64,000 bases of DNA, taken from Roseivirga sp. E12 (GTDB taxonomy: Bacteria > Bacteroidota > Bacteroidia > Cytophagales > Cyclobacteriaceae). The stretch spans positions 248,001 to 312,000 of the forward strand of contig NZ_JAGFMD010000002.1 in assembly GCF_017592825.1 (NCBI RefSeq). The letters are read 5' to 3'. Within the stretch, counting starts at the first letter, position 1. Every line of letters starts with the position of its first letter. This document shows, one piece after another, positions 37,597 through 40,355 of this stretch. Both the position numbers and the translations under genes were made by a program. The notes beneath the pieces were generated by a model. That model was not told the DNA's origin, did no database searches, and saw only the letters and a list, made by a program, of their open reading frames with translations.

Positions 37597-38088
37597 ATGA
37601 GTAAACTTAAGCTTGAAAATCATATCAATGAACTGATAATTATCTGCATCTCTATAAAGATGGGTATCGTGCCAATTGAAAGAGTAACCACATTTTCGGA
37701 TGAGACATTATTGAAAGAAGAGGATCCTCACCCAATATTCATTGACCTCTCCCTTTATTCCTCGGATAAAAATGCCATTCTAGAAATTCTTGGGACAGTC
37801 ATTCTAGATAATCATCATTTGATTGACGAGAGTATTTTGATCAACATAATTGGTGAGCAATATGAAAAGGGCGCATTCTCTTTAGAAAACTCAGTTATGG
37901 CTCTGAATAAACTTTCTTTGGAATACGACCTGGACGAAAAAATCTCTTCGATGATCTCCTCGCTGGATGATCAATACCATCTAATTTCAAATGAATATGT
38001 ATTAGAAACAATGATCGATTTCGAAAGGGAGCTAAAGGCATTTTTTAGAGAACATCACTTAAGCCAAAAAATGATCATCCTTGACTAA
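37597..38088 (+). CDS. Hypothetical acidic protein
   Basis: This 163-aa protein is not a family I recognise. It has no signal peptide or membrane helix and looks mainly helical, with many acidic residues (DLSLYSSDKNAILEILG; ALNKLSLEYDLDEKISSMIS). It follows the SDR by 10 bp, so the two are probably co-transcribed. The stop is followed at once by a terminator hairpin belonging to the duplicated paaN tail. Codon use looks like that of the neighbours. Confidence 0.7.
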   Translation: MSKLKLENHINELIIICISIKMGIVPIERVTTFSDETLLKEEDPHPIFIDLSLYSSDKNAILEILGTVILDNHHLIDESILINIIGEQYEKGAFSLENSVMALNKLSLEYDLDEKISSMISSLDDQYHLISNEYVLETMIDFERELKAFFREHHLSQKMIILD

Positions 38089-38090
38089 AT

Positions 38091-38118
38091 AAAAAGCCAT
38101 CCCTCTCGGAATGGCCTT
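38091..38118 (-). terminator. Second copy of the paaN-type terminator
   Basis: On the minus strand GCCATTCC/GGGATGGC (one G-T pair) with a GAGA loop is followed by TTTTTATTTA. It stands in the same place relative to the duplicated paaN tail as the real terminator (38624-38652) does to paaN. Confidence 0.75.
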
Positions 38119-38137
38119 AATTAATTTTCAGGCAGTC

Positions 38138-38173
38138 TTAAGCTCTTGGAGCTGGTTCTCTCATTCCTACCCA
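38138..38173 (-). pseudogene. Duplicated 3' end of paaN
   Basis: The minus strand encodes WVGMREPAPRA and a stop, identical in protein to the last codons of paaN (38679 onwards), with only two base differences in 36, both silent. Upstream of the Trp codon similarity ends, 12 bp before the inverted repeat of the GIY-YIG cassette. It lacks every catalytic part of the dehydrogenase and is a remnant. Confidence 0.8.
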
Positions 38174-38185
38174 TATATCATCTAA

Positions 38186-38213
38186 CGTCATTCCCGCGTA
38201 GGCGGGAATCTCC
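38186..38213 (+). repeat. 28-bp terminal palindrome, left copy
   Basis: The core is ATTCCC, eight bases, GGGAAT, with an inner 7-bp stem TTCCCGC/GCGGGAA and a GTAG loop, preceded by CGTC and followed by CTCC. The core pattern is the one I know from the neisserial dRS3 repeat. Confidence 0.88.
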
Positions 38214-38513
38214 TTAATTGAAACGAAAGACCTGCTCGTTAAGCCTTTTCTGCTCGGGATTCAAGGTCTTAATTTGCCGTTCTTTCCACTCGCGATTCCA
38301 TTTTTTCATTGCCTTTTCTCGAGCAATGGCTGACTCAATGTTATCAAAAACTTCATAGTAGATGAGGTCTACACAATTATACCTCTTGGTAAACCCCTTA
38401 TTTAAACCTGTTTCATGTTCATATACTCTAGATTCCAAATCGGAGGTGACACCGATGTATAACACAGTCCGGTGGACGTTCGACATAATATATACATAAC
38501 CTCCTTTCTGCAT
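38214..38513 (-). CDS. GIY-YIG nuclease family protein (UPF0213/YhbQ-like)
   Basis: This 99-aa single-domain nuclease has the GIY equivalent YVY (6-8), the YIG motif (19-21) in VLYIGVTSDLESRV, the catalytic Arg29, His33 in VYEHE, the metal-binding Glu66 in AIAREKAMKKW and Asn85 in TLNPEQ. All positions expected for catalysis are kept. GIY-YIG domains cleave DNA in homing endonucleases, UvrC and restriction enzymes; the role of these small stand-alone forms is not settled. It reads from ATG 38513 to a stop that touches the inner edge of the left repeat. Such an enzyme could cut or nick the flanking palindromes, which is a hypothesis. Confidence 0.93.
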   Translation of the reverse strand: MQKGGYVYIMSNVHRTVLYIGVTSDLESRVYEHETGLNKGFTKRYNCVDLIYYEVFDNIESAIAREKAMKKWNREWKERQIKTLNPEQKRLNEQVFRFN

Positions 38514-38535
38514 AACACAATTTACTAAGAGATAG

Positions 38536-38563
38536 GGAGATCCCCGCCTGCGCGGGAATGACG
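38536..38563 (-). repeat. 28-bp terminal palindrome, right inverted copy
   Basis: Read on the minus strand it matches the left copy at 26 of 28 positions (loop GCAG for GTAG, and one A to G change in the right arm). The CGTC end points away from the gene in both copies. Confidence 0.88.
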
Positions 38564-38623
38564 AAACCTGATGTTGTTTTCGTTAAGTATTAAGGAAACT
38601 AGTAGGTCAAGAGTCTTTAAAAC

Positions 38624-38652
38624 AAAAAGCCACCCCGATATATCGAGATGGC
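38624..38652 (-). terminator. Intrinsic terminator of paaN
   Basis: On the minus strand GCCATCTCGA pairs with TCGGGGTGGC (two G-T pairs) around an ATAT loop, followed by TTTTTGTTTT, 26 bp after the paaN stop. Confidence 0.85.
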
Positions 38653-38678
38653 CTCTTGATTAAAGTTTTCAAACAGTA

Positions 38679-40355
38679 TTAAGCTCTTGGAGCTGGCTCT
38701 CTCATTCCCACCCAAGTAAATCTACGATTCACATAATCAGGGTTAGTAAATGAAGCATTTCCCGCAGGGTTACCACCAGTCACATGAAAGTCAGAGAATG
38801 CTGCATTTTGATTCACGAATATCTGTCCTACCAAGTTGAAAGAAACCGGTGTTGCAGCCAGAGACATCTCGTCAGCAATGTATTCCTTCATTTCAGCATC
38901 GGTAGTATAGGCACCACAAGAAATAGCGCCATAAGACTCAGCCATTTCTTTAGCTAAAGCGACAGACTCTTTCGTGTCTTTCGTTTTGATCAAGAAAGCG
39001 ATCGGGCCGAACATCTCTTTTGAGAACTTGTCCTTATCACCTGCTGTCAATTCAATTACTGTAGGTGTCTGTGTTCTAGCATTCTTAAAATAAGGAATGC
39101 TCTGTTCGATATTTCTAGTTTCTAACCAAGTCTTTCCACCAATTGCTTTAGAAGCACCAACAGTTCTTTCTGCGGTAGCAGGATTTTGGATAGTACCTGC
39201 CACAAATGGTCCGGCCTTAGGGTTGTTAATCAAACCATCCGTAAAGTCCGCAAACTTCTGTGCCACTTCATCGAATGAAACGATCCCGTCAGGAGTTTTA
39301 ACTCCTCCTTCAGGAATAAAGAAGTTCTGTGGAGCAGTACACATCTGTCCAGAGTAAAGGGCCACAGAGAAAGTAATGTTCTGAATTACTTTGTCAATGT
39401 TTTCAACAGAATCGAGAATGATAGAATTTACTCCTGTTTTCTCAGTGAAAACAGCTTTGGGCAATGACTCCAAATACGACCCAAACTCTGAGTTTCCAGT
39501 AAAGTCCACGACCTTAACTTTAGAATGCTCCGCTAACTCTTTGGCTAGAGGCTTGCTTTGCGTATCAACCGCTAATTGACATACCTCAGGGTCAAAACCA
39601 GCATCTCTTAAGGCATTTCTTATCTCGGCAACAACAATTGCCATTGGTAAAATCGCACCTGGATGTGGCTTGACAATCACAGAGTTACCCATCATCAAAT
39701 CGGCATAGACACCCGGTACGGAATTCCATGTTGGGAAAGTAGAACAACCGATCACAAGGCCAATGCCCTTAGGAACAGCTCTCCATTCTTTATTAATCAC
39801 AAGGTTGTATTTGCCCATTGGCTTGTCCCAAACAGTAGACTCAGGGAAGCGACCTAGCTCTTCATAACCCGCAGCAATAGCTTCTAATGCTCTATCTGCA
39901 GCATGTGGGCCTGAGGCCTGAAAAGCCATCATATAACCTTGCCCGGTTGTGTGCATTGTGGCATAAGCGTTCTCGAAGAAGCGCTTAGAAAATCTTTCAA
40001 GAGAATCGATCAACACAGATGCTCTGTCATCTTTAGAGACCTTTCTCCAAGAGTGAAATGCACCTTCTGCACGTTCAATTAAAGTATCGACAGAAAAAGC
40101 CGGGTACTTAGTACCTACAGGCTCTGCAAAATAGGGAGAATCCTCCTCGCCAATCCATTCGCTTGCTCCTTCTTGCTTTAGTTCTTCGAAGTTGCCTTTT
40201 CTTAAGGCTTTAAAGGCATTTTTACCATCCTCATCCGCTGTTTCTCCATAAATTTTTGGAGATGGATGCTCTGGATATTGTGCATGAAAAACACGAGTAT
40301 GCAAGGCTTCAATGGCCTTGTCTAAGATCTCTTTTTGTGAAGATGTCAATCCCAT
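38679..40355 (-). CDS. paaN: PaaN-type aldehyde dehydrogenase (phenylacetic acid degradation)
   Basis: This 558-aa protein of the aldehyde dehydrogenase superfamily matches my memory of the PaaN group (phenylacetic acid degradation protein PaaN). The NAD-binding part has IGLVIGCSTFPTWNSVPG and MMGNSVIVKPHPGAILPM; the active Cys lies in ALYSGQMCTAPQNFF; the late Glu-type motif is SKEMFGPIAFLIKT; VTGGNPAGNASFTNPDYVN and WVGMREPAPRA close the protein. PaaN is thought to oxidise the ring-opened aldehyde in phenylacetate breakdown. No other paa gene is in the window, so the pathway link rests on family alone. Its 3' end exists in a second copy beyond the GIY-YIG cassette. Confidence 0.88.
   Translation of the reverse strand: MGLTSSQKEILDKAIEALHTRVFHAQYPEHPSPKIYGETADEDGKNAFKALRKGNFEELKQEGASEWIGEEDSPYFAEPVGTKYPAFSVDTLIERAEGAFHSWRKVSKDDRASVLIDSLERFSKRFFENAYATMHTTGQGYMMAFQASGPHAADRALEAIAAGYEELGRFPESTVWDKPMGKYNLVINKEWRAVPKGIGLVIGCSTFPTWNSVPGVYADLMMGNSVIVKPHPGAILPMAIVVAEIRNALRDAGFDPEVCQLAVDTQSKPLAKELAEHSKVKVVDFTGNSEFGSYLESLPKAVFTEKTGVNSIILDSVENIDKVIQNITFSVALYSGQMCTAPQNFFIPEGGVKTPDGIVSFDEVAQKFADFTDGLINNPKAGPFVAGTIQNPATAERTVGASKAIGGKTWLETRNIEQSIPYFKNARTQTPTVIELTAGDKDKFSKEMFGPIAFLIKTKDTKESVALAKEMAESYGAISCGAYTTDAEMKEYIADEMSLAATPVSFNLVGQIFVNQNAAFSDFHVTGGNPAGNASFTNPDYVNRRFTWVGMREPAPRA

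Follow-up and report, generated by a model that had tools for sequence, protein, structure and literature searches.

A GIY-YIG nuclease gene between inverted palindromes

The window, by which we mean the whole 64-kb stretch of DNA analyzed here (on contig C22 of the host's own 4.7-Mb genome, G000), contains a gene for a 99-aa GIY-YIG nuclease that lies between two inverted 28-bp palindromes (Table 1). As the initial annotation had proposed, the repeats agree at 26 of 28 bases (left repeat, CGTCATTCCCGCGTAGGCGGGAATCTCC; reverse complement of the right repeat, CGTCATTCCCGCGCAGGCGGGGATCTCC) and the stop codon of the gene abuts the left repeat, which the reading frame, Pfam and the sequence itself confirm; the gap between the start codon and the right repeat is 22 bp. 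The sole Pfam match of the gene is GIY-YIG (E = 1.7e-18, residues 5-77), and Y8, Y19, R29 and E66, the last of which we take to be the catalytic position, are invariant across 66 aligned nuclease sequences. Compared with the homologue in genome G003, synonymous differences amount to 0.81 and non-synonymous differences to 0.136, and judging from these values the nuclease is under purifying selection.

The palindrome has the architecture CGTC-ATTCCCGC-N4-GCGGGAAT, and a repeat search lengthens the two repeats to 40-nt arms that are 83% complementary. With up to three mismatches, the pattern GTCATTCCCGCNNAGGCGGGAATC occurs in the 64 kb only at the two cassette sites, compared to 0.00 in 100 shuffles. 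The core ATTCCC-N8-GGGAAT originally ascribed to each repeat holds for the left one, which forms the full hairpin as single-stranded DNA (-8.9 kcal/mol, z = -4.7, none of 200 shuffles as good), but not strictly for the right one, where the hairpin is weaker because one stem pair is broken (-6.3 kcal/mol, z = -2.1, 10 of 200 shuffles as good). The right repeat also misses the looser REP motif used below, of which the window contains ten further matches that are chance-like in appearance.

Ahead of the cassette lies a gene for a paaN-like aldehyde dehydrogenase, whose terminator the cassette follows (paaN is what the initial annotation called it; Pfam gives Aldedh). The end of this gene and its terminator are partly duplicated on both sides of the cassette, a feature that the initial annotation does not mention, at 90% over 49 nt (38125-38173 and 38666-38714) and over a longer stretch with gaps. 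The two copies have diverged, the terminator of the far one resembling those of G003 and G017 and that of the near one the terminator of G001, a mix that looks as if a relative's DNA had recombined in.

Table 1. Features of the nuclease cassette and its surroundings, in window coordinates
Feature	Position	Strand	Basis or detail
GIY-YIG nuclease gene, 99 aa, Slx1/UPF0213-like minimal domain	38214..38513	-	ORF, Pfam, model, profile and fold matches
CGTC-tagged REP on the gene's 3' side, tag outward	38186..38213	+	tag 38186-38189, stem 38190-38197 and 38202-38209, tail CTCC
CGTC-tagged REP on the gene's 5' side, tag outward, one stem pair broken	38536..38563	-	sequence, fold
Codons of residues 71-73 (Lys-Trp-Asn), covarying with REP stem bases 5-6	38295..38303	-	coordinates from ORF
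Codon of catalytic-type Glu66, in the helix before residues 71-73	38316..38318	-	invariance; helix 59-71 in model
Diverged copy of paaN 3' end and terminator, beyond the cassette	38087..38173	.	repeat comparison
paaN 3' end and its own terminator, adjoining the cassette	38620..38714	.	sequence, repeat comparison
REP types non-cognate to the window nuclease: ATTCCTGC, ATCCTGAA, ATTGCGAG

Palindrome class and copies in the host genome

A 2013 survey describes a super-family of REPs that carry a CGTC tag (or TGTC, CCTC) at one end of the stem, occur in many copies per genome and have an 8-9 bp stem beginning with AT, a loop of 4-5 nt and an unpaired tail that is mostly CCA (Di Nocera et al., 2013, PMC3733652). 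There, the class is reported from five phyla and includes the neisserial dRS3 repeats, which are equated with CGTC-1 REPs, as well as RPE-4 and RPE-6 of Rickettsia; the survey states that these REPs "apparently lack a dedicated transposase" and reports no RAYT gene with CGTC REPs in its flanks. The window palindrome fits this super-family in having a CGTC tag in both copies, an 8-bp stem starting with AT and a 4-nt loop, the left copy matching in stem and loop and the right copy with one broken pair. The likeness to dRS3 that had been noticed from the sequence is borne out both by the survey and by a gonococcal homologue of the nuclease, which sits in an array of CGTC REPs. The tail of the window palindrome is CTCC; most CGTC REPs, but not all, fit CCA, and CCA is common in the nuclease relatives. 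The window palindrome also differs from the class in copy number, with five sites at one mismatch in its own genome, two of them in the cassette; the same pattern reaches up to 81 copies in other genomes.

No nuclease remnant was found at those lone palindrome sites of the host genome that were examined. Elsewhere in this genome, two direct copies 276 bp apart (L016 and L017, C11:505334 and 505610) carry ATTGCCGC and ATTCTGAC palindromes; no nuclease match turned up in the surrounding 3 kb. The paralogues of the nuclease in the same genome (L002-L005) adjoin other repeat types, in forms such as TCACTGCGAG, ATTCCGAG and ATCCCGAG...CCGAGGGA; L004 and L005 have repeats in their flanks, yet no tagged motif.

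Linkage of nuclease genes to tagged palindromes

We analyzed 80 genome loci, which are the best 80 of at least 574 relatives from a genome-contig scan with a Rhizobium query and include many alpha-proteobacteria. A strict GTC-tagged palindrome lies within ~500 bp of the gene in 51 of these best 80 loci, and on both sides in 34. The density of strict GTC-AT-stem palindromes in this set is 3.89/kb at 0-100 bp from the gene, decreases to 2.83, 1.45 and then 0.48/kb (300-500 bp), and ranges from 0.04 to 0.11/kb beyond 500 bp out to 10 kb (~0.05/kb at 5-10 kb). The GTC tag is found on 153 of 470 AT-stem palindromes near the gene, as opposed to 72 of 1,673 far from it. By record title, the palindrome-bearing relatives include members of the alpha-, beta-, gamma- and deltaproteobacteria, Sulfurovum, Bacteroidetes, Omnitrophota, Planctomycetes, Nitrospirae, LCP-89 and candidate-phyla bins.

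A looser motif is present at 105 of 126 loci, in comparison with 114 of 864 control windows taken more than 2.5 kb from the gene at those loci with long flanks. The 126 loci comprise 34 from the host and related genomes, 12 plasmid-collection homologues and the 80 genome loci; L006 and L007 were excluded as members of a sister family. This motif replaced a very loose one that matched 126 of 126 loci and was uninformative. It was also detected at 28 of 30 later, unseen loci from Bacteroidota genomes. The initial annotation had named a lack of excess of linked copies among its refuting outcomes; linked copies are in great excess in all three counts.

Some of the 21 loci without the looser motif carry variant REPs by eye, and at L079, L110, L145 (the same as L076) and L147 no REP was seen even by eye. 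Similarly, long-loop or wobble variants can be seen by eye in both flanks of ~22 of the 29 genome loci without the strict motif, as in Mesorhizobium. In a flank-pair test, 16 of 79 loci beat the 99% level of mismatched pairs (9 of 29 among those without the strict motif), a level that is raised by related loci with common REPs. In the host and related genomes, 25 out of 36 GIY-YIG loci have flanks that resemble each other more closely than any of the 35 mismatched pairings; the match is REP-like in most of these 25, but a repeated gene end, not a REP, accounts for it in L001, L006 and L007.

Ten of the 12 plasmid-collection homologues have the looser motif. Strict palindromes occur within 400 bp in Azospirillum lipoferum, Sinorhizobium, Rhizobium sp. 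CIAT894, Shinella, Aeromonas, Photobacterium and the gonococcal record; the strict matches in Sphingobium and Spirosoma look like chance, and none was found within 400 bp in Novosphingobium, Planktothrix and Rhizobium tumorigenes. The records of L068 (Neisseria gonorrhoeae, 2.17 Mb) and L073 (Aeromonas caviae, 4.94 Mb) are chromosome-sized and are labelled plasmids in the collection. Across 164 loci, the tag points outward in 62 of the 82 nearest upstream and 64 of the 84 nearest downstream REPs, and both tags do so in 42 of the 66 loci having a REP on each side. These comparisons of flanking DNA show a general linkage of nuclease and palindrome, usually in a tag-outward arrangement.

A sister GIY-YIG family of the YIYILKS type (loci L006, L007, L228, L230, L231, L235, L238, L239, L240, L244, L245 and L246) has the looser motif in 2 of 26 matched stretches, which belong to a single locus; with one exception, its loci are free of CGTC REPs. 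In 12 of 22 loci of this family the gene lies within ~55 nt downstream of a tRNA gene, and at several of its loci the GIY-YIG gene is followed by a repeat of the tRNA 3' part, often including the terminator. From its surroundings, the sister family looks like a second, tRNA-linked GIY-YIG element.

Covariation of nuclease residues and stem bases

Across genomes of one genus, the motif that follows the helix bearing the conserved Glu goes with the stem of the REP. In 98 non-redundant loci (out of 125 with a stem, among 164), excess information is highest for residue 73 paired with stem base 6. Within stems of the form ATTCC[C/T], Asn73 is accompanied by C in 17 cases and T in none, and Lys73 by T in seven cases and C in none (p = 3e-6). 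Residues 71-73 predict bases 5-6 with a purity of 0.82 over 144 unique loci (of 153), versus 0.385 after shuffling and a maximum of 0.484 in 2,000 shuffles, which do not control for relatedness. The most consistent combinations are KWN with CC (23 of 24), RWY with TC (16 of 17), NWH with TG (9 of 9), KWK with CT (6 of 6), EWK with CG (4 of 4) and GWK with TG (4 of 4); less pure are RWP with TA (9 of 13), KWR (six CG and five CC) and RWN, which is mixed. In an AlphaFold2 model of the nuclease (mean pLDDT 88), residues 71-73 form the turn between a helix at 59-71, which bears Glu66, and a helix at 74-84.

A Mantel test gave r = 0.42 (0 of 2,000 permutations as high) with host relatedness uncontrolled, and a tree test was used in its place. 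The tree was built without residues 68, 71-73 and 76 and covers the 33 of 144 loci that have Trp72, Asn or Lys at position 73, C at stem base 5 and C or T at base 6; outside this set fall, for example, EWK-CG (4), GWK-TG (4), NWN-TG (2), KWN-GG (1) and FWK-TG (1). Residue and base are matched at all 33 tips, with at least six changes of the residue and at least six of the base, Fitch counts being minima and the tree having no branch support values. Shared ancestry alone fails to explain the matched changes.

The rule for residue 73 was derived from part of the data and was fixed before the later set of 30 loci. In that set, Asn73 went with C in five of six cases, the exception being a protein with KNWNRQWK and the stem ATTCTG; a KKWKQ protein gave T as expected, and the lone Lys73 protein with Glu71 gave G, not T. 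Taken together, the sequence evidence strongly supports the view that the nuclease recognizes its own flanking REP.

Co-occurrence and signs of mobility

Searching for the palindrome with and without the nuclease, as suggested at the outset, we found the window's palindrome type (one mismatch) in 48 of 296 Bacteroidota genomes. A member of the nuclease family, of any variant, was detected at E = 1e-15 in 39 of these 48 genomes versus 81 of the other 248 (odds ratio 8.9), counts that ignore host relatedness. Where the palindrome is present in at least ten copies, 13 of 14 genomes have a family member at this threshold. Of the nine palindrome genomes lacking such a match, six have weaker GIY-YIG matches, some perhaps of the sister family, and three, G136 (13 copies), G315 and G339, have no nuclease match even at E = 1e-3.

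A paaN-like gene is present in fifteen genomes of the genus set, including the host's own, at the cut-off used. A comparison of these loci for empty sites, which had been recommended initially, did reveal cassette-free regions: in the ~700 bases downstream of paaN, the cassette occurs only in the host genome and G003. It is missing there from G001, which has the closest protein (98%). Judged by coordinates, G002 and G011 have other family members 259 and 338 bp, respectively, upstream of the paaN-like gene, and G016 has broken family pieces ~1 kb downstream of it. In G131, two copies with 99% identity over 420 bp occupy separate intergenic REP arrays at a distance of 6.45 kb. On the right, the identity ends 3 nt past the REP tag; on the left, it ends in a spacer common to the arrays. 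These copies could stem from recombination between REP arrays. What the sequences show is that the cassette is present in some genomes and absent from others downstream of paaN, and that a second, nearly identical copy exists in G131. The nuclease is usually found in few copies per genome. Family members were also observed inside a DISARM defence locus on a Planktothrix plasmid (L070) and between sufB and sufC on an Azospirillum lipoferum plasmid (L066).

A proposed nuclease-palindrome system

GIY-YIG enzymes hydrolyze DNA without a covalent intermediate. We consider it probable that the window cassette is one copy of a widespread two-part system, consisting of a minimal Slx1-like GIY-YIG nuclease and its own CGTC REP, in which the nuclease helps to spread REPs and itself. 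The order in such a system is REP, gene, REP, and the tags face outward in most cases. The nuclease would read the REP stem via the turn after the Glu66 helix, with residues 71-73 matched to stem bases 5-6, and would cut its own REP once this has formed an extruded hairpin or cruciform. The resulting breaks may then be mended from other REPs or from the REP-flanked gene, and such repair would multiply REPs, enlarge arrays and copy the gene into REP sites, a homing-like route rather than transposase chemistry. Cutting of the REP and mobility of the element are what we infer from these patterns. The suggestion of the initial annotation that a GIY-YIG nuclease takes a RAYT-like role withstands the two refuting outcomes named there, as the excess of linked copies and the co-occurrence show, and gains independent support from the matched residue and base changes; that the enzyme moves the element is our interpretation.

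With somewhat less confidence, though we still favor it, we extend this reading to the class: CGTC REPs, including dRS3, would form with a GIY-YIG enzyme a selfish system of nuclease and palindrome that parallels RAYT and REP independently, with a readable code by which residues 71-73 determine bases 5-6, making cognate pairs predictable from sequence. The GIY-YIG nuclease may then be the dedicated enzyme that these REPs were said to lack.

Alternatively, the REPs may be only a landing site, the nuclease homing to a REP and inserting its own gene while something else spreads the REPs. This would account for the REPs in the flanks, for the matched changes and for copies lying within REP arrays; however, REP-rich genomes free of the nuclease should then be common, and only 1 of the 14 genomes with at least ten copies is of this kind (at E = 1e-15, host relatedness ignored). 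We regard this alternative as unlikely. Slx1 is a branched-DNA nuclease, and UPF0213 and Slx1 are the nearest solved folds. One could imagine a host maintenance enzyme that trims REP hairpins or cruciforms in replication, or hairpins formed by REPs in RNA, and stays close to its substrate with no selfish spread, which would also suit the purifying selection and the usually low copy number. A substrate, however, need not flank the gene of its enzyme, and the patchy presence at paaN, the sufB/sufC and DISARM placements and the near-identical G131 copies look mobile, so that we find this explanation improbable.

Y1_Tnp is the domain of RAYT. A third possibility, that a RAYT or another transposase moves these REPs with the nuclease as a passenger, draws on the frequency of Y1_Tnp genes in the phylum (203 of 296 Bacteroidota genomes, with two matches in the host genome). 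Y1_Tnp nevertheless predicts the palindrome weakly (40 of 48 palindrome genomes versus 163 of the other 248; odds ratio 2.6), and a Y1_Tnp match is lacking in eight palindrome genomes, including G335 with 43 copies, which weakens the case for a RAYT as the mover. This possibility, which we think very improbable, also leaves the match of residues and bases unexplained and sits poorly with the survey's failure to find a RAYT gene flanked by CGTC REPs (PMC3733652). Least credible is chance or passive proximity, with REPs gathering in intergenic gaps and the gene lying in one by accident: REPs are indeed intergenic and clustered, and most loci have REPs merely nearby with no fixed layout, but the sharp fall of density with distance, the control windows, the sister family and the residue-base match all contradict it.

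If the proposed nuclease-palindrome system is correct, it gives an enzyme to a widespread repeat class that the 2013 survey left without one (PMC3733652), gives a role to a large group of standalone GIY-YIG genes and offers a simple residue-to-base code; pairs of REP and enzyme would then have arisen at least twice from unrelated enzymes.

Comparison with known systems

Both halves of the pairing between GIY-YIG nuclease and CGTC REPs are already known. We regard the pairing itself as a new kind, since the cassette was examined for the features that define REPtrons, insertion sequences and I-TevI-type homing enzymes and does not have them; the pairing did not appear among the matches listed from the open-licence PubMed Central literature.

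The nuclease has the domain and the conserved Tyr, Tyr, Arg and Glu of the GIY-YIG superfamily. It is Slx1/UPF0213-like: the nearest solved sequences are the UPF0213 structures 1zg2 and 1ywl (profile matches, E = 1.8e-7 and 1.2e-5), and Foldseek with the model returns 1zg2 (E = 8.6e-4) and then Slx1 (from E = 0.0098). It shares the minimal single domain with the Slx1-like standalone GIY-YIG family, for which a predicted repair role is cited (Dunin-Horkawicz et al., 2006, PMC1564403); a term search of that paper gave no 'palindrom'. GIY-YIG homing endonucleases of the I-TevI type, which the same paper places with UvrC and not Slx1 (PMC1564403), spread by cutting and repair, as proposed here. 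They have extra DNA-binding (NUMOD) domains, whereas the window nuclease has 99 aa, one Pfam match and no second domain, and the sequence it recognizes is apparently the flanking REP. A homing endonuclease of any type cuts the element-free allele and is copied into it; for the cassette, regions downstream of paaN that lack it were observed. The cassette resembles an insertion sequence in its inverted repeats but has no transposase domain.

The window palindrome has the CGTC tag, 8-bp stem starting with AT and 4-nt loop of the CGTC REPs and differs from them in its CTCC tail, where CCA is usual, and in its few copies; the survey, looking among transposases, found no associated enzyme, whereas here a nuclease gene is linked (PMC3733652). 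For Moraxella catarrhalis, a RAYT gene and a GIY-YIG gene are both listed among clade-specific genes, with no link drawn between them (PMC9465073).

A close parallel is offered by the RAYT/TnpA-REP REPtrons, which likewise have a small REP-flanked enzyme gene, an enzyme type that follows the REP type and REPs that are also dispersed. RAYT moves GTAG REPs, and a REPtron has an HUH/Y1 transposase between its REPs and a GTAG tag, whereas the cassette has GIY-YIG as its sole Pfam match and a CGTC tag. The nuclease-REP system would work like a REPtron but is not one.
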